NCBI RefSeq assembly: GCF_040954835.1
Contig: NC_090706.1
Coordinates: 33,985,148 to 34,049,147 of the forward strand
Source of the DNA: Lepisosteus oculatus
Taxonomy: Eukaryota > Chordata > Actinopteri > Semionotiformes > Lepisosteidae
DNA: 64,000 nucleotides
Reading direction: 5' to 3'
Positions 1 through 43,000 of this stretch are shown piece by piece; the stretch's first letter is position 1, and each line of letters begins with the position of its first letter. The translations under genes and the position numbers were made by a program. The notes under the pieces were generated by a model. It was not told the DNA's origin. It was given only the letters and a program-made list of their open reading frames with translations, and searched no databases.

Positions 1-3000
1 AGTGAACAGTTTCTAATATATTTATAGTCCAAGATGGCTTTGGGACAAAATGTGACAGAACATTTACTTTGACAAGATTTTCCACCTTGTTTTACTAGTG
101 TGTAAAGCCTTCGGTCTTACCTTTGTCCATCAAATATAATAAATAAATAAATAAATAAGATCACTTTATTGGCCATATACAATTTCTTGTATTAGGAATT
201 TATCTTTTTCACATGCCCCACCTTGCTCTCCATGAGACACACAAGACAGGGAGAAAAGCTTGGGGTCAAAGCGCAGGGTCAGCCATTTATACGGCGCCCC
301 TGGAGCAGTTGGGGTTAAGGGCCTTGCTCAGGGGCCCAAAGAGTAGGATTCCTCTGCCGGCCCCGGGATACAAACCGGCAACCTTCCAGCCACAGGCACA
401 GATTCTTAGACACTAAGCCACCGCACCATGAATGTAGTCTGGTATGTGAACAAATGATTGTAAGAGATACAAATCAGGAAAGGTCATTTGGCTCACCTAA
501 GTATTTTGGTTGCAATTAATCCAGGTCTTTCCCCTTGAATTTCTTAGAAATTGGTGTAACATGGTAACATTTTCATGACATCAAGAAAGAGGAGAATTGT
601 GTGGAACAACATGGCTCCTTCAAGACTCCTTCAACTTATTGAGTAAAAAGTGCCTCCTGCTCTCAGTTTTAAATGCACGTTCCCATAGTTCGCATTTGTG
701 TTCTCTGGTTCTTGTTTCACTGTTAATTTTGAAAGTCAGTTCTCACACCATTAAAAGAAGGATATTAATGGCCTCCAGCATGTTCATCTGTGTATGTCAA
801 GTTTGTTACAACGACACCTGTATAGAACATTGCTCCCCCTTCCACATAAAATCACACATTTATGAGGTATCCAATTACCTTGGCTTGTGTCTAGTTATTT
901 GTTCTCCTCAGATTACATCCTCGGACAAAGTATATCTGCTAGTAGCTATGAATATATATGAGGTCTTGTTTTCCTTCCTATCTGAAGTTCATATACTCCT
1001 CTCTCAAGGCATTCCACCTTTTGTATCTTATCTGGCTATACATTATCATAATTATTGAAAATATTACAATTCCCAGCCTGCCTCAGAAATATAAAGCTCA
1101 AAGCAATATTAACCCTAAAGAGGACACCAATCCTTCAGACAACATGCACACACACAAACTACTTTAAGGACACCAACTGAACCAGGCAACAATTCTTCAG
1201 AAGATTGGAAGAAACCCAGAAGTGCCCAGCGAAAAACCAAACCTCACACAAAAGGTACAGCAGTCCACAAACAAACACATGACCCAAACAGCTATAAGGA
1301 TGTGGTATTAACTGCCTTGCTACTGTGATACCCCAGAGAGAATATCTGTATCATCTATTGACCTGTTTAGTTAGGTATAGACAACATGATACTGCTCCCT
1401 CAGTGACCAAGAGCAGGAAATCTACAGAACAATGAGCTCACACTAAAGGGTCATCTGACAACTGCTTCTAAGAGTAATTCTTTTTTTTCCCTTTAATTTA
1501 ATCTCACCATGCTTGGCACCACTGTTGTGGATCAATAGGAAAAACAAATTCCATGCCCCCAGAAGACAAAACAGAGAATCTTATAAAGCAGGTTTGGTAC
1601 CTAACCAACACAATAAGACAAACCAGATCTGAGAATGAAAACAGTCTTTTAAACATTTTGTACAGCAGTAGTAGAAACACATGATGTATTTATCCAAAAC
1701 AGATACAATGTAAGAATATTGGGGAAGACTTCCCTCAATAATTAAAAAAAACACATCTATAACTGCAATTAACAAGAATCAGGGCAGGATTAAAAAAAAT
1801 AAATTCAGTTTGACGCAAAGTAGTAGCTAGAAACTGTACAGCACTTTCTAATATTTTAGAGGTTCTTGGAAATGCAGCTACTGTACCTTTGATTTCCATT
1901 GAGCCATTATCCATTAATTTATTAACAGGTAGTGCCACCTCCTTTACCTTGCTTAATACAAATTAAAAATGATAAAATTACCATGCATCATTCTGTACTT
2001 ATAAAATAGATATCATATTAAACACTTAATGTTAGCTATTCAGACTTTTTCTAGAGTGTCCTTTAATGTATAAACATATAGATATGAACTATAAATAGGT
2101 TATTTCCTTTCTGGTATTGTCTCGCAATACCAGAAGGTGAAAGAGTGAAACGCCATTTATATCAATAGCACAGAACTAGGAAGAATACACATACAAATAG
2201 TTACATGTACAGTACAGGGAAAAGAAAAAAATGCAGATTACACAACAGCAAAACGCAGATTATGTATATTTCTCCGACGGTTTCATAATCCCTCTAGGGA
2301 ATATGGCAGGGTTGTGGCTGGAGACAATGAAAAATGGGGTGTCCTTTCAAACGGCAGTCGCTAAGTATAAATGCTATTTTACTGAATTGCAGAGTTCATT
2401 CTTAATCCTATTGTCTGAACTATGTAAATAACCGATATTCAATACTGTTCTTACTTTGGCCGTATCCCCTACTTAAGAAAATTTGAGATGGCTATAGGAA
2501 TCAATCCAATCCACCTTGGCGCAATACAATCTGTCGGTTCAACTCCGTCCCTGAGAAGAAAAGCAATTTCCATCCTCCCACTAACAGCCACCTGGATCTA
2601 ACAGTATGGCAAACTACGTGGGGTGATGCATAATACGTTCTTGTTGAACAGGATTCACACTATTAAGAATCGGCGTTATCATCGTCAGTTTTTCATTTCC
2701 GATTATATGTAAGCTTTTGTTTGAAGTTACTTAAATAAAGAAACAGTGACAAACTTTAAAAATGTACTTAAGCAATTAAAAAATGTAATGAGTTTCTAGT
2801 CTACTGTTGTTATCATAATTAGCTGTCACATTGTGCAAATCAAAAGTGAAATCAAAGTTTCTCTGAAGCACCGAATAGCTACATTTTGCACGTTAGAGTC
2901 CCCACCGCCCACTTTAGGGCGCCTCATTAAACTAATAGCAAGTGGCGAAGTGTTTCTATAAAACGTTTATTAGTAAAACCATTAGTGTTGCCTTGTTCAT

Positions 3001-4254
3001 TGTTTTAATTCGTCTAGGAAGAATCATTCAAGTACAACATCTCATTTAGAACAGTCAGGCAACAGCTTGCCTGGTTTTTTTTATTTGGTGTTGATGAATT
3101 GGTCTAATACCTTGCTTTACTAAAACTCAAACTTTACCCCTACGTCCCTTAACATAGTAATTAGTATACAGCTAATAGAAAACGAATACGTGAAACCCAC
3201 CGCGTGCTTTCAGGTTACAGGTTAATAGAAACACGAGCAGAGAAACTCGGGAAAACAAGCTTGATGTACTTTAGAATAACCAAATATACAAACTTTCAGC
3301 GAACATTACATCGTGAGATGAGAAGAATGGTCTTTATAATAACACTTACATGCGTGTTGATACAGTTAGGGTTTTGTCCCGTGAAAACACCTCTAATGTT
3401 TTTCAGTGTGTTGTAAATCCTGAGTTTGCCACTTCCAACTGTGCGATCTAATTTACATTAAGACAATAATACGAACACGCCGTTGTCATTTGCACTAGAA
3501 AACAACACATTGGATACATTAAATGGTTGTTTAAAGAGATACGTCATGGTGGATAAAAAGCTATTGAAAACTCCACAAAAGACACACACCTGCATTCGCT
3601 GGAAACTGAATTTCATTAGTCTTATTTAAAAACAAACGTGACTGACAGGTATACTTCAGGTCTTAGTTCTAAAAAAGCCTGGCTGTATTCATATTTAAAA
3701 CTAAGTCCTTGATTCACCCACCCAGCACTTACACACTCCTACTCAAAGCTCTCCAATTAAAAAAACAAATGAGAAAAAATTAGAGGCCCTGTATATAGCT
3801 GGTATACAGTGCAAGATTAAAAAAAACACCGTCCAAGTTAGTACCTTAGCGAATACTGACCGACCTATGCTGTGAATCTTACTACTTCAAAATCTAAGGT
3901 ATAGTAGGTATTAAATTCACAGCTCATTCAAGATCTCAAAGGGGCATGAGTCTAAGTAGCATTTTTACCCTTACTTATTTCAAACCAATTAAACACGAGG
4001 CTTTCTACACGGAGACTCCTATATACCTGATCCGTAAAGCAATGTGCAGCAGAACACAAGAGAAAGTATCCAGCGCTGCTTATTTGCTTCATCCTCAGAT
4101 GTGATGCGTAAAACACACACAAAAAAATGATTAGGCTACACTATACAGACAGCTCAGCGAAATGAAAGCTTTGCAAACGCTGGAGAAAAAAAAACACATA
4201 TCTTGCATTCTAGCAGAGGACAAACTTAAACCTTCCAGTGTCTGAAGACATTAC
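1..4254 (-). other. mgat4b: mgat4b intron 1 (partial), no exon seen
   Basis: This stretch lies downstream, on the minus strand, of the splice donor of mgat4b coding exon 1. I looked on both strands for the next mgat4b exon (the coiled stem region) and for other conserved coding blocks and saw none. The open frames here are short, AT-rich and resemble no family I know. Apart from one SINE near the left edge and short A/T runs it looks like ordinary intronic DNA, so intron 1 is longer than about 4.2 kb. Confidence 0.7.
137..428 (-). repeat. tRNA-derived SINE, near full length
   Basis: Read on the minus strand, the element begins near 428 with a tRNA-like head (GGTGGCTTAGTG type A-box region) followed by a B-box-like GGTTTGTATCC. 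It then has a body rich in GGCCCTTAACCCC-type sequence and ends in ATTGTATATGGCCAATAAAG and a (TTTA)n tail at 137-160. This architecture, RNA polymerase III promoter boxes plus a short simple 3' tail, is that of a SINE. I recognise the body as a family widespread in ray-finned fish genomes but cannot name it with certainty. Confidence 0.75.
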
Positions 4255-4351
4255 CTTTTGGATTACTGAATGCGGTGTACCAAGAAAGCGAGATGAAGCC
4301 GCATAGACCGAACAAGATGACAGTTAGGAAGGTGCCATTTCGGAGCCTCAT
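4255..4351 (-). CDS. mgat4b: MGAT4B, first coding exon (N-terminal membrane anchor)
   Basis: The product is alpha-1,3-mannosyl-glycoprotein 4-beta-N-acetylglucosaminyltransferase B (GnT-IVb), a Golgi type II membrane enzyme that adds a beta1,4-GlcNAc branch to N-glycans. This exon starts at ATG 4349-4351 and encodes MRLRNGTFLTVILFGLCGF and onward through SLSWYTAFSNPKG. That is very close to the start of mammalian MGAT4B, with a short cytoplasmic tail and a hydrophobic signal-anchor at about residues 7-25. The exon ends in phase 1 at a clean donor (CAAAAG|GTAATG). An upstream in-frame ATG at 4499-4501 exists, but family alignment favours the chosen start. The stem and catalytic exons lie outside the window to the left. 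The gene is divergent from sqstm1, as in human. Confidence 0.9.
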
Positions 4352-6029
4352 CTCCGGATCACCGGGATCATGTCCGAACCGAAAACGGGGTGGTGGTTGC
4401 TGTGTTCGGTTTCGTTTCACCAGAAGAGGGAGAATTCCTCGGAAACAGGAGCAGGGATAAGGGGTTATAATTCCGAGGAGATCATGCACATTCACAGGCA
4501 CCGAGAGCGGAGCCTGACTCGGGGTGGGGAGTAGAGAAAAGGGGGAAGGGTTTGCTACATGGGTTTAGAGTGAGGAGCTCCTTAAAGAGAACGAGTCATG
4601 TATAATATTCCGGGCGTTTAGATGTTAGCCAACAGTTCAGGACTCATTTCAATCTGGCGCTCATATTTTACAGTGCGACACTGACTCGGTTTACAGATGC
4701 TATTCCAATTATTTTCTGAGCGCATGCGAATGCTATGTATCCAAGTGTATATCTAAAACAAACGTCAAGAGCGTAATTTTCTTTTCTAAACGTGGAAATA
4801 ACACCGCAAAAACATGCGTTTCAAATGTAAGCAAAGGTCCGCAGTAGTTTTTAGGTATTTGCAATATTTACAATAAGAGAATTAACAGTTGCAATAACAC
4901 TGACATTGTTGGGAAAAGAGGTGCACGGAAAATGTATATATTTTTAGCTCCAGTTAACACATTTATACTCACAAAATACCCTTTAAATAGTTTGTAAATG
5001 CTATGCTTTTAAGCAGTCTGTCGAAAAACTCTAGAATGCAATTTTTTGATACTGCACTCTAGCATTGGAGAACACTTTTAGATTGTTTTAAATGTTGCAT
5101 AATTTGTACGCATTTGTGTTAAACATGTATAATGGTGGTTTAGGGTTGTACACCTGTTTATACTTACTCAGATTCACAACTTCAGGAAATTGAAAGATGA
5201 GGAAAAAACGAAAAAAGCCCTAAACGAAAAAATACAGGCCCGATCTTCCTATCTAAATGCTTACGCACGCAAATTCTGACCAATACATAACACGTATGCA
5301 TAGGTTAACTAAGTACTAAAGAACGGCGAAGAGCTTTTTTTTAACATCGTTGTAGGCTACTGATACGAACATTTTTTTTCCTTACTTGAACGTTTTTTTT
5401 TCTTTACAGCTATTTAAAAATAGGATATGCAGTGCTATTGGCTACTAACGTTTTTCTCGGTGACAATATGTGGTTGTCTTTAATGTTTTAATTGTATTTG
5501 GTTTTTATATTTTAACAGGCGCTTTAAGTGGCCCGTGCCACAATTTGGTTGTGTTTAAACCACGTTGCTCATCATATTTCTTTGACAGGAAGCTTAAATA
5601 TGTGTTACTGAAAACAAATAGGGCCAAAGTTAAAACTGTTTTCTGCAAAGATACATTTTTTTTGTATCCGGGTACGTAGCGTAAATATGAAAATACTAAA
5701 ATACTAAAAGCATAAAATTATTTATAATGAATTGTTGTTCAAACAGTAAACCGATTTTCTAAAACAAATGATAGTCCTTCACATAAAGAATCACATTTAC
5801 TAGGGCTTTACCAATAATGTCAATGTCACAGGCATGCGTCCGATTCACTTTCGCACAAAACCTCACTTACCTCGACTTTTTAAGACTAATAGGAATATTA
5901 CACACTCGCCAACGGTGTTGTGGAATAGCCTACATAAAACAACGTAACTCAAAAACCCAAATAGTTTTGTTAAGTTGTTGTTTGTAACCTCAGGAAAGGC
6001 ATGGTGGACGTAGTATTAGGAAAATATTA

Positions 6030-6145
6030 CTTCAGGTGGGTAGCTGCGTCAGCATGCGTAGGCTGCAAAGTAACAATAGGTTTATTCCATGCTGAAAAGA
6101 GAAGAAAACACAACATTTCGGCCGTGGAGCCTTCTTCAGGTGTGA
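6030..6145 (-). mobile_element. Penelope-like or retrozyme-type retroelement remnant with hammerhead-like core
   Basis: On the minus strand this segment matches a second copy at 24647-24770 and a truncated copy at 45666-45704, so it is a dispersed repeat. It carries, in order, ACAC, CTGAAGA (6139-6133), a short GGCT/GGCC hairpin, GAAA (6119-6116), then TGTT and GTGT (6111-6108). These can be drawn as hammerhead stem I (ACAC/GTGT), the CUGANGA core, stem II, the GAAA core, a minimal stem III and a GUU cleavage triplet. One extra A between the core and stem II is non-ideal. Hammerheads of this minimal type are known from Penelope-like elements. The unit ends about 104 bp later at another CACCTGAAG. 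No reverse transcriptase is visible. Confidence 0.5.
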
Positions 6146-6596
6146 GAAAGACAGGGCAGTAAGCAAATGTGAAATATTAGATTTAAGGCAGAATATTAAA
6201 TAACCTGGAAGAGCGTTTTTTTTCCAAAGCACTTTCACCTTTGTTTATAAAGGTATTGAGGCTGAAATAAAGTGATAAATATCTCATGATGTCCATTAGA
6301 CAACTAACGTTCACTGCATTAACGTGTCATCAGTTTGCAGCCTGAGTCTCGTATTGTTCAGATATTGGACGCCGTCTACATAAACTGCTTGTCATATGAC
6401 CTAAAAGATAGTGTGAAGTTTTTACGGCAACGTATTAAACGGAACGTTTTAATGTCGAAAAAGAGTATTTTTACGTAACCATAAGCGCTGTCCACCACTA
6501 GCGACTGTTTCTTATGGGCATTTATTGCCACCTTGTGGTTGATTAAGTTAAGTTAAATTCTGTGAATTATTTCACAGCATAGTGAAACACGCTGTT

Positions 6597-6745
6597 ATAA
6601 TAGTTACACTTATATAGCGCTTTTCTGGACACTACACTCCGCTTTACAGGTATTGGGGACTCCTCTTCTTAACCACCAATGTGTAGCCCCACCCGAATGA
6701 TTCCCCAGGACGCTCACTACATTTCAGCTACTGTCACCGCCGTGT
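6597..6745 (+). repeat. Dispersed fish repeat fragment (SINE-like)
   Basis: The segment begins with TTACACTTATATAGCGCTTT and continues with a sequence I recognise as a moderately conserved dispersed repeat of fish genomes (TTTACAGGTATTGGGGACTC, then AGCCCCACC). The same opening recurs at 9902-9921, directly after a long (AAT)n tract, suggesting that the tract is the tail of this family. The copy is diverged and truncated. Confidence 0.5.
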
Positions 6746-7399
6746 GCGCGTACATTTGTTAGCAGGATACCCCTTCGCAATTTGGATTTTTCCATATAAT
6801 CCTGCAATCTCAGTATTAAATTAGAGAATCTATCAAGCTTTTAAAATGTATTCGATTATTTAAATTTACGTAAAACCAGAAATTATTTATAAGAAAGATT
6901 CTGCATTAGCCCGAATGTTCCATTTTATCAATGTCCATTTGCTCAAACATGTTATTAAGCGCACGCAAAACAAATGCCACTCATATCGTTGAAGAAGTGT
7001 CCATAATTTCCTTTTTTTAAACTTCAGACGCTCTTAGAGCTATCTAGCGCTAGGTTTTTGGGTAACAAATGCATATACGTTTTTCAGAAAGCCGTCTGTA
7101 GATGACCAGACCAGTCCCGAAACAAACAAGACACACGAAATGCTACAGGCATCTTGGGTTTTAAGGAGTACAGCCTGGCTTACCAAATACAAGTGTTTCT
7201 AGAACACGCACGTGTTTGTAGCAGCTCGATACCTGCTCGAACTGTAGGAGTTAAGCACGAAGAGGTCGTAAAATTTCAACTGTAAACAAATTACAAGTTT
7301 TGGAATGCATAAACTTAATATTTTAATACCTTCGCAGTTTTTATTCTCATGGCGCCTCACTCGATATTACCCTTGGGGCGATGCATTTAATACTATTGT

Positions 7400-7510
7400 A
7401 ACGCATACGGCCACCATCGGCTGTGAGAGCCGGCTTACCAGCGCGGTGACGTCAGGCGGCAGCGGCGAGGGCGCATACCCACGTGAACCCCGTAGCGCTA
7501 CAATACTAAG
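7400..7510. promoter_or_regulatory. GC-rich patch with a full CRE and an E-box
   Basis: A local GC-rich and CpG-rich stretch in otherwise AT-rich DNA contains a complete cAMP response element TGACGTCA at 7447-7454 and a CACGTG E-box near 7481-7486, plus GGCGGCAGCGGCG-like sequence. It lies between two divergent genes and about 300 bp left of the palindrome array. It could be a distal promoter or enhancer, or part of the mobile element that carries the array. No transcript can be inferred from sequence alone. Confidence 0.3.
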
Positions 7511-7766
7511 ACATGACGCATGCCAACACGTTAACCATCTGTGACATAAACCTGTGTTTGTAATGTATGTAAAATCACCGTGATTGTAAGATATATGGTT
7601 TTTATTTTCTAAGGCACGTTTTCCTTTTCTTTCCCTACCGTGACACGCTGTTGCCAAGCCCATAGCTGTGGGATACCATCGCGACAAGTTATGATAGGGA
7701 CCCCATTTATATTGCGGCAGTGTATATCACGACTGGCGCCTTGCTTCCATGCCACCCTGGCACCGC

Positions 7767-8345
7767 TGTCGCAACAAAGGTCTCATATCAGGACATGATA
7801 TACCCAGACAGGTCGTGTCGCGATATATGGACTTGTGTAGCGACATGGGTTCAACATATCTTGCCAGGGTGTATCCTATTGCAACATATGGACTCCATGT
7901 CGTGACATGGGACAGGGCATTTTTGCCAGGGTACGCCATATCGCGATATGAGGGCTCCATGTCGCGACATGGGGCGGGGGGTGTTTTGTCATATCGCGAT
8001 ATGCGGGCTCCATGTCGCGACATGTGGGCGGGGCTTTTTTTCGGGGGTATGTCATATCGCGATATAGGGCCTTTCATGTCGCGACATGGGGTGGGGGCAT
8101 TTTTGCCAGGGTACGCCATATCGCGATATGCGGGCTCCATGTCGCGACATGGGGCGGGGTGTATTTTTCATATCGCGATATATGGACTCCATGTCGTGAC
8201 ATGGGGCAGGGGCGTTTTGTCGGGGTATGTCCTATCGCGATATATGGACTTAATGTCGCGACTGTGGCACCGTGACAGTGATGGGTATCGCGATGTAATC
8301 GTGATGCGAGCACTCTTATCGTGACATGCTATTGGAGTCGTGAAC
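7767..8345. repeat. Array of alternating CpG palindromes with helical spacing
   Basis: Two palindromes alternate: A = CATATCGCGATATG (perfect at 7937-7950, 7990-8003, 8117-8130; one end mismatch at 8053-8066 and 8169-8182) and B = CATGTCGCGACATG (perfect at 7958-7971, 8011-8024, 8075-8088, 8138-8151; CGTGA variants at 7896-7909 and 8190-8203). Thirteen TCGCGA cores, two TCGTGA cores and two decayed cores give 17 centres. A to B is 20-22 bp; B to the next A is 31-32 or 41-42 bp. Spacers are G-rich (GGGCGGGG, often with TTTTGCCAGGGTA). Both strands stay open and encode repeated RDM and SRY-type peptides, an effect of the palindromes rather than evidence of a gene. Edges decay gradually; an isolated TCGCGA also occurs at 7679-7684. 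Confidence 0.9.
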
Positions 8346-8548
8346 GCGCTGTGAATGCCATGACATTCTTTGTCTGCTATTCAGTTTTGACCTCAGTGCG
8401 ACTTCTCTTAGATTGATAAGTTATTGGAAACCAATGAATGTCTTACTGTATATCCAGCGTGCTCATAGAGCACACACGGTTAAGCACGACTACAGTATTT
8501 GGGACCAAGAAGAACCTCCATCACCTGTGTATCTGCATGTTCTCGGTA

Positions 8549-8634
8549 CTTCCAGGTGGCGCTTTACCCAATCAGAGTGTCGATTCTCACTCTTCACCCA
8601 ATCGCGGCCCGAGCTGTTCGGGGGTTTAGCCAAT
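8549..8634 (+). promoter_or_regulatory. CTCF-like site followed by three evenly spaced CCAAT boxes
   Basis: CCAAT boxes occur at 8568-8572, 8598-8602 and 8630-8634, all in the same orientation and 30 and 32 bp apart. Just upstream, 8549-8562 matches the CTCF core pattern at 12 of 14 positions. Multiple CCAAT boxes about three helical turns apart are typical of NF-Y-driven promoters. No coding exon is recognised within 4 kb downstream, so this may drive an unannotated transcript or be a relic of a mobile element. Confidence 0.35.
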
Positions 8635-9267
8635 CACGGGTCTGAGAGCTGTTCAAGGAAGCAGCGCCAGGTGGATCGGCTTGTTTACTGTCAATGAGAA
8701 TCTATTTTTAAAATGCTTTACTTATTTGCAAAGTAACTACATCGGCTTGGTTTTTAACGCCTTTATTGATTCACAATGTCCCGTGCTCTTCGAAATAAAT
8801 ACATTTGTATTTGCAATATAACTGTCTCCGCTGCTTTCTGTAATGAATACATCGTATTTGTACAATTTGATCGTGTATTTAAGGTAGGGGAAACACCTCC
8901 TGCTTTGTACTTAAAAATGAATAGAGATGTAAAGCCTATGATCATTATATTATTATGCTCGTGCTTCAAATTTTGTTTTTTATTGTTAAATTATATCGAT
9001 CTTGAAACTAATACCTAAAAATGTGAATATGGGCTCTCGTGTTGTACCAGCGGTAATATGGAAACTGGGGTCTCTTCACCAATGCATGGAGTACACAAGC
9101 AATACATTTTCGAGAACATGGTTAAAAATTAAAAGAAAACACCTAACCCAATGAACTAACTCCTCCCTAAATGTAAGACAGTTTATTCGTGTAAAGGCTG
9201 CAAAGTCTGGGGTCAACTGATCAAAAGATCACAGCTGAAAGATCTAGTCGTGACTTTGCTGTTTTGT

Positions 9268-9286
9268 ACGTCACGGAGTGACGTCA
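9268..9286. promoter_or_regulatory. CRE dyad
   Basis: ACGTCAC and GTGACGT form a perfect 7-bp inverted repeat with a 3-bp spacer, and the right arm overlaps a full TGACGTCA (9279-9286). This is a plausible CREB/ATF binding site in the sqstm1 upstream region, about 3.6 kb from the start codon. The function is inferred from the motif only. Confidence 0.3.
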
Positions 9287-9505
9287 CAGCCAGGAAAAGA
9301 AAGCGTGAAATGAGCCATACAGGAGATAGCTGTGTGAATCTGTGGGTTTGCAATAGACCAAAGCAGAGAGTCGGTGATGGGTAATGGATAGGTTTATGTC
9401 TAGAAATGGAAGAGTGATGGAAGATATGTTAACTGTATATTTGAGGGACTGGTGGAAGTTGGTGAAGTGATGCAGGAACTGCACTAGCTGGTCATTAGAG
9501 CATGA

Positions 9506-9845
9506 ATTATTATTGTTGTTGCTGTTGTTGTTGTTAACAATGCATTTAATTTACATAACACACTACATTACAGCGAACTTCAATATGCTTCACATAAAAG
9601 ACAAAACTAAAAAGAGAAGTCAATAAACATACCAATAACTAAGGTGGAAAAAGAAAAATGAGTCTGCAGTACTGAGGTTTTAAGGTCTCTTTTAAAAGTA
9701 AGTTGCTAGCAGTCAATTAAAACCAGAACCGCCCAGTATTTGTACAGCCTCTTTCCTAGGGCTGCCTTTTTGCTTAACCTGAATTCCTAGCTCTATGTGC
9801 ACTGTTGCTGTTTATTAGCGCTTCTTGTCTGATATACAGTATGTA

Positions 9846-9900
<55 letters not shown>

Positions 9901-9922
9901 TGCTTACACTTATATAGCGCAG
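9506..9922. repeat. Microsatellites and SINE-like tail
   Basis: A TTG-rich tract lies at about 9506-9538 and a nearly pure (AAT)n tract of about 18 units at 9846-9901. The latter runs straight into TTACACTTATATAGCGC, the opening of the dispersed repeat seen at 6597. The tract is therefore probably the end of a retroposed element rather than a free microsatellite. Confidence 0.7.
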
Positions 9923-10417
9923 GAAAATTCAGTATCTGGCACAGGATTCAAGCTAACTTCTAACCCCATCCTATTAAAGAGCAGAAACTGCTAAAACAGT
10001 TCAATAAACTTGATTAAGAAAGAGCTCAGAAAGAAGCAGACACAGGGATAGTTCTCTCTGTTCCAGGGCTGAAAACAATGTGCTCCTGTGTCACTCAGTC
10101 TGTGTCTTATATTGTACCTGTATTTTGTAGTCCTCTATTGTAATTTTACCTTTATTACATCACTATATTGTACTTCTGAAGGTATAGATGAAATTTTGAA
10201 TCTTCTTTGTACAAATTGGAATTCTTTTTTGTAAATTGCTTTGGGTAAATACGACAGCTAAATTACTGTGATTATCAATAATGGATTTTACTACGTCAAT
10301 GACATACACTCATGTAAGGAACCTTGATTCTTTTATTTAAATCCGAAAGGATGACAACAAATAAGCTGTATTTAAATGCCATCATATTCTAATACTTTTA
10401 TGTTGTAATGCTGTATA

Positions 10418-10783
10418 TTAGCGTCTAGACATTGTTTCATTTGACAACAGTACCTCTGCCTTGAATTTACACTGCGTTGCTTTATAGGAGTAAAGAGGAG
10501 ACAATGACAAGTCGTTTGGCATGAACTTCTGGAACTTTCGTGATCTTTTCTTTAGTGATTCATAGGAGGTCCTGGTGGAAACGCGATACAAGAGAATAGC
10601 AATAGAATCATATGATTCGGATGAGTCATAGTCAGGTGACGTTACTCCTTCAGGAGGGGGAAGAGAGGGGGGGGCGAAGGGGGGTATTGCGACATACAAT
10701 AATTCATAGCAACTTTCACTCTCTTTCGTCATTTTCAGGTAAAGGGGCAAATCAAGGCCTAGGCTCTCATGGTGATGCAGCAT
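10418..10783 (-). CDS. Uncharacterised open reading frame, probably not a gene
   Basis: A 121-codon frame on the minus strand contains a proline-rich stretch (PPFAPPSLPPPEG) followed by an acidic/serine stretch (DYDSSESYDS) and a basic segment (KKRSRKFQKF). A TATA-like CTATAAAA lies just upstream of the first ATG. The composition looks less random than neighbouring frames, but I recognise no family, see no exon structure, and a frame of this length can occur by chance in 64 kb. It could be a domesticated mobile-element fragment or noise. Confidence 0.12.
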   Translation of the reverse strand: MLHHHESLGLDLPLYLKMTKESESCYELLYVAIPPFAPPSLPPPEGVTSPDYDSSESYDSIAILLYRVSTRTSYESLKKRSRKFQKFMPNDLSLSPLYSYKATQCKFKAEVLLSNETMSRR

Positions 10784-11087
10784 TTTATAGTATAGCTTTG
10801 TTAACCGATTTATAAGCTTATCAGCATCACATGCTTTTATGCTACCTGATGCAACCTCTTGTTTGTTTCTCTACACAGGACTTTATTATTCTCAATTTAA
10901 GGAAGATCCATAAGCAAATAAAAAAGAAAACTAAACCCAACTGCAGGTTGGAAATTATAAACCAGAACTGGCTTCCCGAAGCACAATTCATCAGGTTTTA
11001 TGGGTCAATCTTAAATCCTCAAATTCTGAACCAGTAAGTTGGATTAAGTTAATTTTCACTACTGTAGCAGGTGAGGTGTTCAGCCGT

Positions 11088-11342
11088 TATCACCCATTAT
11101 CAGGCAGATGCCTTTTTCTATAAGGGGCAGAATCTTTGTGTTGCCTATCCCAGGTGCAAGGTGAGACTGTACTGCACGAACCAGTTATCCTAGCCAACAG
11201 GCCCTTAGAAGGTAGAAATGGAGAACCTGAAGAACAACAACAGAAAAGGAGCATATATACTCCATAGAGGAGATGCCCCTGTCTGGAATCCAACCTAAGA
11301 CCCAAAGCAGTAAGAAAAGTGGTCCTAACCACCATGCCACCA
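11088..11342 (-). repeat. tRNA-derived SINE, diverged
   Basis: On the minus strand the element starts with an A-box-like TGGCATGGTGG (11339-11329), then a B-box GGTTGGATTCC (11295-11285). A body follows with the GTTCTCC / CTTCTAAGG / GGCTAGGATAACTGG blocks characteristic of a large fish and vertebrate SINE superfamily. The copy at 55190-55565 belongs to the same superfamily. The right-hand part is eroded. Confidence 0.6.
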
Positions 11343-12755
11343 CAATGTAATTTCATTTTTTGAAATAGAAAACACCAACATTTTGTAGCTCTCAAGGACC
11401 ACAGTCAGTCATTTCTGACTCGGCATCACCAATTAATTTGCTGCTCATTCGCCGTAACTGTTGCTTGAAAAGCTGCACAGAACAGTTCCATGCGGTGAAT
11501 GAGCTAATACAGAACCTGACTGACGCAACGTGTTAAACTGATCTGACCGTAAACGTGTTGCACGTCTTCAAAAACCTACGGGGTTAATTACTAGGGCCAG
11601 GGTTGTCCACCACCTGGTTACAAACTCAGGACCTGATGGCAGGTTTCTGTGCGGCTTCTTCTCTCTCGCCCTCCAGTACTTGAGTTTGAAACCCGCGGTG
11701 AGACAAAGTTGTCGATTCTGCCAGGCCTTGATAAGGCTCCTGCATAGTCTAGGCAAACAGCCGATACTCATAGAAGAGTACATACACACAGCCACGGCTG
11801 TTAAAAAGGCTGTTCAATATGTGTTGAACAAAAATGTTCCAAAACACAAGTTTGTGCCAATTTCCAGTGACTCATCTTCAACATGAGAGGGTGGCAGGTT
11901 CTGTACCTCGCCAACGCGCAGGAAAGACATTGAGGTGGATCTCTTACTTCATGCTGACTTGCAGATTGCCATCTTGCCTGATAAACAGAGGTTATTAGAT
12001 AATGTGAAGACGGTCCCCCTAGTCTCTCTCATAGTGAAAATGACTGGTTATGATTTACTTTAAGTCACATTTCTTAAGATAACGAGGTACCTTCAAGTGA
12101 AGTTGAACAGGCTTTCTAAAACATTTATGTAGGTGGAAGGAAAATAGGTTTCGTCAGGGATGCCCGCTTTATACTGACTTCTGTACAAACCAGTGTTGTT
12201 TCTAATACTGAAATTGATACAATTCTAAAAAAGTATTTCCATTTATAAATTAAAAACATTACTGGCTCTGAATTTTGCTCCCTGAAATTAATATTTCCAG
12301 TCTTTTCTGTGTTCCCGCGAAAATCTTGAGTTTAGTTTTTAGAACCACTAGATGATACATAACTAATGTAATTGATAATTCACTCATGTCTTGCTTTTAA
12401 CTCGTATTCTAACATGTATTTTCATGTATTGCATGTACCTCAGTAGTAGGATCATTTCTTTCTCGTATTACAGTTCCTTTTTTTTATACTGAATATTTTC
12501 TGTTTTACAGAAGCTGATATTTCCATTCTGTTTTCCCGCGCTGGGATGTCACTGTAAAAAAGTGCTTTGTCATTCTTCGACCTTCAACAACCCACTTTGA
12601 ATAGGGCTCCATTCTGTTTACTTTGCTAAAGACTGGCTTGTTAGTAAACGCGAAGAAAAAAAGTGCGTTTTTTTACCAGACAGCTGGATTTCCCCCTATT
12701 CTCATAGCAACACCCTTTTAATTTTTTAGGATGCACAACCCCTGAAGAAATGCTG

Positions 12756-40000: not shown

Positions 40001-43000
40001 CATCAGTCCACTGGACCACCAGCGTCACTGCAGGGAAGGGGAAGAACAAAAACGGTTAGCGAATGGGAAAGTTTTGGCAGATGCAGCAAGTAACAAAAGA
40101 CCGCACACTACCAATGTCAGTGACTTCTATGTCCTACGTTCTTATTAAGTAAAACCTGACAATCAAGAAGGTTGTCAAGAAGGCCAAGACCATTATGGAG
40201 GGCCTCACCTCCTATATTGTGAACTTACACTACTCCCATCTGTGAGACACCTCTGTGTCCCAAGGTGTAACAGTAACTGACTCAGGAAATCTTCTGGTCC
40301 CACTGCAATATCATTCTCAGACAATGTAAAGAAACGTGCTTATTTCCTGTAACACTACTGCATCACCTTCTCTGCTGGTAACGTTTGTAATGTTTGTATT
40401 GGACAGTGCAGTAAAACAATTATTTCCCACGTGAATTCTGAAACAAGATCAAATGTAGCCCCCCTTCCTATGTGTCTGTAAGGAAAGACTAACTATTCCA
40501 CATGCCTGATATCTAGCACCAAAACCTTGCTGGCTGATGGATAAAGCACAGCACAGGGTTCCCATGTGAACGATTCTCCAGACACGTCTCTCACCTTCCT
40601 TGCCAAGCAGGAAGGAGTAGAAACAGAGATGATTGACACTCAGGTAGAGCCAACCCTGGCGAGGGACACGCCCCTTCCAGTAGCTGCAGGAGTAGTAGTT
40701 CACCAGTTTCTCCTCATCGGGCATTCCAAACAGCTTCCGCATCTTCAGCTCTGCCTCCCGGAACTTCCCTGAATCCTCTTCCTCGGTCGTCTCTTTGCTC
40801 TTGTTCTCCTCTGCAATGATTCCCTGGAGGTTATGAAGGAAATAAACTTTGGTAATCAGGCTTTCACATGTAACCGCAAGCACCCACCACCACACAAAAC
40901 AGCCTGCATTTTCATACCTTGTAGTCCTGCAGTCTGGGTTGCATATGAACATATTTTCATGTTCTATTTTTGAAATTGTACTATGGATAGAAATAAGTCT
41001 TCCATCAAAACATTTAGCATAACAGATTTTTAGTATTCTACTATTTTAAGTTGATCAGTGCAAGGCAGTACCAATTTGTAATGCATGAACAGTCAGGAAG
41101 AGAAATAAGACCATCTAGTCCACCCACACCAGATTCTATGGATAGAAATAAGTCTTCCATCAAAACATTTAGCATAACAGATTTTTAGTATTCTACTATT
41201 TTAAGTTGATCAGTGCAAGGCAGTACCAATTTGTAATGCATGAACAGTCAGGAAGAGAAATAAGACCATCTAGTCCACCCACACCAGATTCTCCTCCTTC
41301 AGCCTGACCTACCTGGATCTTGCCCTTGACAAAGGTTGTGATGTCCTCCTCATTTTCGAAGATGGAGAGGGTCTGTAGCAGGTTCGCCTCCAGCCACTCC
41401 CAGTGCTCTGTGATTTCCTTACGGGATGAGCCTAGGAAAAGGCAGCAGGCGTCTATGTTAATAATATTCCAACAGAGATTTCACTGTGACCTCCAGAACC
41501 AATGTGAAACTTTTGTCTTCTAGTAGTTAAAGTGGGAATCCAAATACTGCACATATCCAGCATTGCAATATTACTACTTAACCACACAGTGGGTGGTGTT
41601 ACTGGGATCTGTTAATTTACCCTTCAGCAAAAGTTATGCTATGATGAAATAAAGCTGACTTTAGCAGCGACAGTGACTAAACTCTACATAACAAAGAACA
41701 GGACCAACACCCATCAACAGGATAAAGCAGATCAATGTCTGCTGCATATCAAAAGGCAAGACTTGGAGCAGGGCAAAGCAGATCAACATGAGTTACATAT
41801 CAAAGGACAGGACAAATATCCATAACAATCCATAAAACTGTGAAACCAAACTTCCTTAAGAAACCATACTGTATATAAGTATTGGAAACGCCTTTCAGGG
41901 TGTCTGTTCTGCAGGACAGAACCATCGTGCATTGCTGTCTTTATCGAGCTCCATAAAACTGAATCTGCACAAGACTGTGTCCTGCTCCTCTGATGAAGAA
42001 TTTCACACAACATGGTGAAGAACATCCACACTGATTAAAAGGTAAAAAGCCCTCAAAAACTGTACTCACCACATGCAATGCTCCAAAAAATCTGGGAGTC
42101 CTGAGTTTGGTGGAGTATCCTGTAGGGGGCAACTCTTGCACTGGAGTCCAGAACGACATCTAAGGTACCCACCAGCAAACCTAAACACAACACAAACAAC
42201 AAGCAGTGAAGAAGAAAACCAACAAACGCACAAAGAAGATGGATACTCTATCTGTTACTATACAATAATGAGCAAAATTACCAGTTTTTAGTGTGTACTT
42301 TAGAGCAATATTAAAATAATAGTTACCATCTGCCATGGGAAACATGACCAGTTGTAGTTAAGAGATGCATGTGCAATTACACACTGCATGTTCAGAGAAT
42401 TAAATACAAATTCCAGTGCCACAAACTGTATTGGTTTATCTGTACTACAGAACGACTTCAATGCAAATTGCTCAGGACACTTTGCAAACACAGTTAAGCA
42501 CACATCTACTGACAAACGTAAAACAAAAATGGGTAAAACAATTTTCTACATTAAAATTATTGAATGCATGCCCATGTGACCTCATTAGCTGTTTTAAATT
42601 CCTTCAAAATTAATATCGATTTCACATGCCGTAAAGTTCCAGACAACTTTTTTCTTGTTACTATTGACCTACATTTTGTTTTTGAAGTTTTTTTAGAGAG
42701 TTTATGATTTCTACTGTCACAACTTTTATAGTATCAGCTTTCACTTAAGGAAATGGTACTCTCTGGTATTGAATGTTTTCGTCGAAAATTGTCATTCATA
42801 TAAATCCAGGAGCATCTGAATTAAAGACAAAAAGAAACGTAACCTGCCATTCATCATTGAGCCGAAACCACATGACCTCTATCGCTGTCGCAGAATAAAT
42901 AAAACTGGCCCATTCACTTCAGAGGAAGTCATATTCTAAAGAATCATTAGTGTGCTTCAAATGGCCTGCTGCAGAACACAATTAATCTGTGCTGTTTTTA

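Follow-up and report, generated by a model that had tools for sequence, protein, structure and literature searches.

An array of CGCG palindromes in a dispersed non-autonomous DNA transposon of Lepisosteus oculatus, a candidate enhancer-like platform for a dimeric protein

The window, by which we mean the whole stretch of 64,000 nucleotides that was analysed, corresponds to C11:33985148-34049147 of a 1.2 Gb assembly with 813 contigs. At 7812..8299 it contains an array of alternating A (CATATCGCGATATG) and B (CATGTCGCGACATG) palindromes, for which no strand is assigned. The sequence-only reading had placed palindromes at 17 centres, and a related TRTCGCGAYA site is indeed found at all 17, with weaker sites extending past them on both sides of the array. 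The TCGCGA core is exact in 13 sites, while the remaining four read TAGCGA (centre 7840.5), TTGCAA (7881.5) and TCGTGA (7902.5 and 8196.5). When all 14 bp are considered, seven sites are perfect palindromes, four more have 6 of 7 positions paired and six have fewer. The centre-to-centre steps are 20, 41, 21, 41, 21, 32, 21, 42, 22, 42, 21, 31, 21, 41, 21 and 32 bp (sum 470 bp), in agreement with the earlier description of steps of 20–22, 31–32 or 41–42 bp, i.e. about 2, 3 or 4 helical turns.

The density of sites in the array is far above chance. The background (the window and fetched flanks with the element excluded, 156,609 bases) contains TCGCGA 6 times, whereas the array regions of 19 fetched copies, 22,800 bases in total, contain it 232 times; strand matches to the hDRE consensus, in which each palindromic site is counted twice, number 0 and 202 in these two sets. 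In its strict form this consensus is TGTCGYGAYA (excerpts of PMC6192621 and PMC8775481). Seven of the 17 sites in the window match it, spread over 7816..8201 (unstranded; starts 7816, 7898, 7960, 8013, 8077, 8140 and 8192), and six of the seven are of the B type. With seven of 17 sites fitting, the specificity for ZBED1 looks weak. A 191-aa frame at 7749-8324 was considered as a possible coding array and is probably incidental to the repeat. Searches of the whole window found neither a tRNA nor, at gathering score, any Rfam family. Elsewhere in the window, a 155-bp unit is present in two tandem copies with 100 % identity (40981-41292), and an open frame on the minus strand (40452-40952) encodes a GRAM domain (E = 6.4e-15).

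Beside the array, on the plus strand at 8568..8634, lie three CCAAT boxes in a promoter-like arrangement (8568, 8598 and 8630, i.e. 30 and 32 bp apart). All three boxes are present in 18 of 20 copies and their exact spacing in 16 of 20. The mean divergence per box is 0–2 % versus 4.9 % for the segment, and a fourth CCAAT located upstream is unconserved, with a divergence of 7.2 %. The protein binding these boxes is presumably NF-Y.

The array is not confined to this locus. We counted 445 exact A-B palindrome pairs and 387 exact B-A pairs genome-wide, and the reversed control patterns of both gave 0 matches genome-wide. Searching the genome with 7767-8345 returned at least 57 matches (best 40 of 182 candidates scored) and with 8556-9305 at least 40 (best 40 of 201 candidates scored). 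Twenty copies were fetched with approximately 4.5 kb of flank, L012 and L013 being near-duplicates. Judged by BLAST blocks and by coverage of the 20 copies, the window is homologous to other copies at 7024-7389 and 7502-9305. The second interval (7502..9305, plus strand) is the body of the array-bearing transposon copy, whose right end is lost near 9305; the array itself is covered by 20 of 20 copies, and mean coverage falls from 15 at 9200 to 11 at 9250 and 1 at 9300. The stretch at 7390..7501 (no strand) is barely common to other copies (coverage 1–2 of 20) and lacks the left terminal inverted repeat. The first interval, the left block (7024..7389, plus strand; blocks 7024-7313 and 7312-7389, about 78–97 % identity), is a fragment of a second repeat, most of which is covered by 8–11 of the 20 copies. 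In many genomic copies this left block hosts a nested copy of the transposon, and in such composites a CAAGGTAAA-like duplication next to the AGCTCC terminus marks its end. Since many array copies are nested in the second dispersed repeat (left flanks of L009-L028; L030-L041), it appears that the composite was dispersed as such. The copy in the window is likewise nested, and both of its ends are gone; the terminal motif, allowing up to 3 mismatches, is absent from 2001-12000.

Other copies continue outward into inverted repeats ending in AGCTCCGTGAAGTTG; the termini read AGCTCC...GGAGCT. The inverted repeats measure about 140–540 bp in the family, for example 141 bp with 86 % identity in L011 and 544 bp with 90 % identity in L029. 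A 207-base terminal-repeat query (best 40 of 1078 candidates scored) gave 40 listed matches, of which 33 begin with the second base of the query, four with the first, two with the third and one with the fourth. Perfect 9-bp target duplications flank copies on C3 (GTTGACAGA) and C1 (CAGAGAAAC), both of which contain the array, and the duplication of L011 matches at 8 of 9 positions. Solo copies with a duplication, three in all, measure about 2.4–2.75 kb. In composites within the second repeat, CAAGGTAAA-like duplications were recognised by eye, matching at 8 of 9 positions in one C8 copy and at 7 of 9 in the C26 and C12 copies. No duplication was found for L017 and L029, nor in the searched flanks of L014, L019, L020 and L025; the check leaves out the C9, C19 and C17 copies, the other C8 copy and the left side of L022, where the second end was unlocated or the flank unfetched. 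Copies contain 18–33 sites (up to 2 mismatches), and in L011 the distances from the sites to the two ends are about 460 and 1240 bp. The array is therefore a repeat inside a DNA transposon that is non-autonomous and dispersed in the genome. Of the young minisatellite considered in the sequence-only reading, the repeat array stands, but it is not a lone minisatellite because it sits inside this transposon. In addition, terminal modules of about 110 bp occur two to three times at one end in L014, L017, L019, L022, L024 and L026. The fetched sequences also contain a 742-codon open frame resembling a LINE reverse transcriptase by eye (L022:793-3018), a piece of an Ig-type gene with CEACAM as the best PDB match (L055, E = 3.6e-6) and a LRR piece seen by eye, the latter two being indicative of a vertebrate.

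Relatives without the array share the right-hand part of the element, which begins in the window at 9157..9305 (plus strand). The best characterised of them, L029 on C14, is 5.1 kb long, bounded by the 544-bp repeats mentioned above, and contains no TCGCGA. Window 9198-9305 aligns to its positions 3976-4095 with 76 % identity, and L029 also matches L011, L017, L022 and L025 more widely. Remnants of coding sequence, all decayed, lie inside it on the minus strand. Pfam searches with 10 of these pieces gave only hits below the cut-off, none of them to hAT/BED or PHD, and the structure predicted for a 112-aa piece had too low a confidence to be informative (mean pLDDT 32.5). One decayed piece (L029:668-1003, minus strand), with 80 matches in the genome, shows sub-threshold likeness to ubiquitin carboxyl-terminal hydrolases; with E values of only 0.17 and 0.09 we make no claim of such a domain. 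No transposase of the element was identified in the searches of the genome and of the L029 pieces. Eight further copies on C14 (L043-L050) also lack TCGCGA in the 1.3 kb read. Together with L029 they have multiplied along this 60-Mb contig with a nearly identical left flank, and as the 20-base left flank of L029 is common to all of them with small differences, they look like one amplified unit rather than independent insertions. In L051, L060, L061 and L063, which lie outside C14, TCGCGA is absent from roughly 1.3 kb next to the same end.

Regarding the affiliation of the element, the 9-bp duplications differ from the 8 bp (5–7 in variants) of hAT transposons and from the 8 bp of KDZ/Zisupton elements, as given in excerpts of PMC12730594. 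Together with the AGCTCC termini, they contradict the hAT origin proposed earlier, and the 8-bp duplications with terminal inverted repeats expected near the array were not seen: the window copy has no ends and other copies carry 9-bp duplications. The same length falls within the 8–11 bp range of MULEs (PMC6446971, in part), which also agree with the element in having long terminal inverted repeats. The terminal modules reiterated at one end resemble plant MULEs with multiple TIRs (excerpt of PMC3310237), and an internal minisatellite is described for Rehavkus and the aphid Phantom in the excerpted text of PMC6446971. The minisatellite of Rehavkus precedes the 3′ TIR; here, too, a minisatellite is internal, and either end of the element may be the 3′ one. 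Rehavkus encodes a PHD-finger transposase, and the L029 pieces searched gave no PHD hit. The MULE transposase domain PF10551 had 0 genome matches at E 0.001 (8 candidates scored), with a control positive in 3 of 14 genomes, all prokaryotes, so that animal MULEs may have escaped it; the KDZ transposase domain PF18758 also had 0 genome matches, with a control silent everywhere. Given 0 matches and controls that are weak or silent, we stop short of assigning the element to the MULEs and regard it as MULE-like by its ends only.

We characterised the conservation of the sites on 126 near-complete units out of 171 found with a profile. The 12 non-CpG columns of the core diverge by 3.4 % and the 31 linker columns by 15.7 % (Mann-Whitney p = 0.0035), while the CGCG positions diverge by 8.3 % and the outer palindrome positions by 13.0 %; single-copy flanks of the element diverge by 4.5–5.0 %. 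At the sequence level, the low divergence of the core relative to the linkers supports the conserved multi-site platform proposed earlier, although part of the contrast could come from the slippage-prone G/T linkers. Because the outer positions vary like linkers, it is the inner ten bases that are held and not the whole 14. Compensatory changes at mirror positions were found neither within A nor within B units. Covariation appeared only at the C/G pairs of CpGs, which represent CpG decay pairs (p = 0.006 and 0.026, uncorrected). The absence of compensatory change speaks against a hairpin or cruciform constraint and fits either a protein site or a homogenised repeat.

In the window and 19 copies, the A-B distance is 19–22 bp in 126 of 130 cases, and the B-A distance is 30–32 bp in 20, 40–43 bp in 105 and other values in 9 of 134. 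Similar classes were obtained from the first 100 of the 445 A-B matches (C1-C6; 14–36 bp allowed), with 81 at 20–22 bp and 19 at 30–32 bp. The first 100 of the 387 B-A matches (C1-C6; 28–56 bp allowed) include 21 at 30–32 bp and 74 at 40–43 bp, the remainder being three at 38, 39 or 44 bp and two at 54–55 bp. Among the matches listed, spacings in other genomic copies therefore cluster at 19–22, 30–32 and 40–43 bp with few exceptions, as the sequence-only reading had anticipated. Its suggestion that spacing rather than unit length is kept thus withstands the refuting condition set for it in the matches listed. The copies, however, are of common descent, and the 10-bp length class may be explained by deletion between TGTC...TGTC direct repeats 10 bp apart; 11 of 20 short linkers, counted by eye, end exactly in TGTC. 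Selection for helical phase is for these two reasons only suggestive. Indels in the flanks comprise 38 of 3–9 bp versus 6 of 10–11 bp. The p value for phasing depends on how many short linkers are assumed to be independent (5.5e-8 for 20, 0.008 for 6 and 0.13 for 3), and it was computed with five off-phase linkers, omitting two at 27 bp, an omission that favours phasing.

The spacing and conservation data have to be weighed against a neutral origin, in which a minisatellite carried by the transposon arose once, spread by unequal exchange and only appears conserved owing to recent expansion and linker slippage. In L010, L018 and L021, linkers that follow one another at 63-bp intervals are identical or nearly so, in keeping with such a process, and the TGTC-ended short linkers, the variable outer positions and the missing compensatory changes fit it as well. 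It accounts poorly for a non-CpG core that is far less diverged than the linkers and even slightly less than the single-copy flanks. We consider the neutral origin a serious possibility, somewhat short of probable. The subterminal repeats of hAT and CACTA elements are transposase-binding sites, and a dense motif in the interior of an element that has TIRs and target duplications might similarly be a docking array for the element's own transposase. The same end without TCGCGA at the four places outside C14 and the distance of the sites from both ends of L011 argue against docking, as does, for a hAT enzyme, the length of the duplications, and we find it very unlikely. The more specific version, a hAT transposon with subterminal repeats for ZBED1 or a hAT transposase, draws on the B palindromes that match TGTCGYGAYA; set against the 9-bp duplications, the AGCTCC ends and the L029 pieces with no hAT or BED match, it is hardly credible.

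An anti-silencing function deserves separate consideration. In Arabidopsis VANDAL elements, non-coding tandem motif arrays are targets of VANC proteins, which remove DNA methylation (PMC5735166, in part), and, according to the same excerpt, these are dense short motifs in fast-changing tandem repeats of non-coding transposon DNA, as here. An element or host protein bound to the array might likewise keep the transposon unmethylated. In the flanks of the element, C-to-T and G-to-A changes amount to 3.4–6.1 % at CpG versus 2.9–3.1 % at other C and G, and by a second way of counting decay affects 7–12 % of the CpG cells at a divergence of about 4.7 %, compared with 38 % at 7.1 % in a single control family (8 rows, L2-like by eye). 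A search for control repeats yielded 10 tiles, 8 of them from L016, and two further families were tabulated. L014a (6 rows), with a ratio of decay to divergence of 3.01, lies above the element, but it is of the same type of stretch as the 8-row control and thus not independent of it; L019b (6 rows), apparently a local tandem repeat, lies below the element with a ratio of 0.31. Over 15 CpG columns of the terminal repeat, 19 of 210 cells are decayed in 14 array copies (8 of the 20 first copies and 6 later ones) and 45 of 135 in nine array-less C14 copies. Protection from methylation by the array seemed a good explanation against these C14 relatives and failed once four array-less copies from elsewhere were added (8 of 60), as low decay evidently does not need the array. 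We see a VANC-like role as unlikely, and the likeness to VANC target arrays extends to the working principle only.

The reading we prefer, at a probability of roughly 0.5, is that the palindromes make up an enhancer-like platform, within a non-autonomous cut-and-paste transposon, to which a dimeric protein specific for CGCG palindromes would bind. The array would be a self-expanding internal repeat of the AGCTCC...GGAGCT element, each palindrome would offer a two-fold symmetric site to a dimeric protein reading TNTCGCGANA, and the run of sites together with the adjoining triple CCAAT promoter could form a high-occupancy enhancer for the element. Binding and the enhancer role are the most likely explanation of the conserved palindrome cores and CCAAT boxes seen in the dispersed copies, and the binder may be either a factor of the host that recognises CGCG palindromes (ZBED1-like in the case of type B) or a protein of a lost autonomous partner. 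As in hDRE and CGCG promoter elements recognised by ZBED1/hDREF, the core is a CGCG palindrome and promoter-like boxes adjoin it, with type B fitting TGTCGYGAYA; the A type TATCGCGATA, however, strictly fits neither hDRE nor TCTCGCGAGA. The promoter of the DENR gene has three CGCG elements (excerpt of PMC6192621), in contrast to the tens of sites inside the transposon here. The variation in site number between copies (18–33) at a largely constant A-B spacing of 19–22 bp counts in favour of the platform, and so does the strong enrichment of sites over background. The array-less relatives with the same end (L029, L043-L051, L060, L061 and L063) count against it, as do the linker-like outer positions and the mirror positions free of compensatory change. 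Further points against it are that low CpG decay also occurs in copies without the array and that the transposase searches named above found none.

A bolder form of the platform is a helically phased enhancer in a vertebrate 9-bp-duplication transposon that recruits a CGCG-palindrome protein to escape silencing, as an animal counterpart of the VANC array. Dozens of dimer sites would then face one side of the helix next to the CCAAT triplet, and their register would be kept as the array grows or shrinks. We judge this form quite unlikely. With hundreds of array variants occurring naturally in one genome, the importance of helical phase for a densely occupied binding platform could readily be tested. 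The element also has a Mutator-like end structure in a vertebrate, and the excerpted text of PMC6446971 leaves the presence of MULEs in vertebrates an open question. If the array does recruit a host factor, this would also be a case of a transposon that spreads strong CGCG sites together with CCAAT promoters across a genome.
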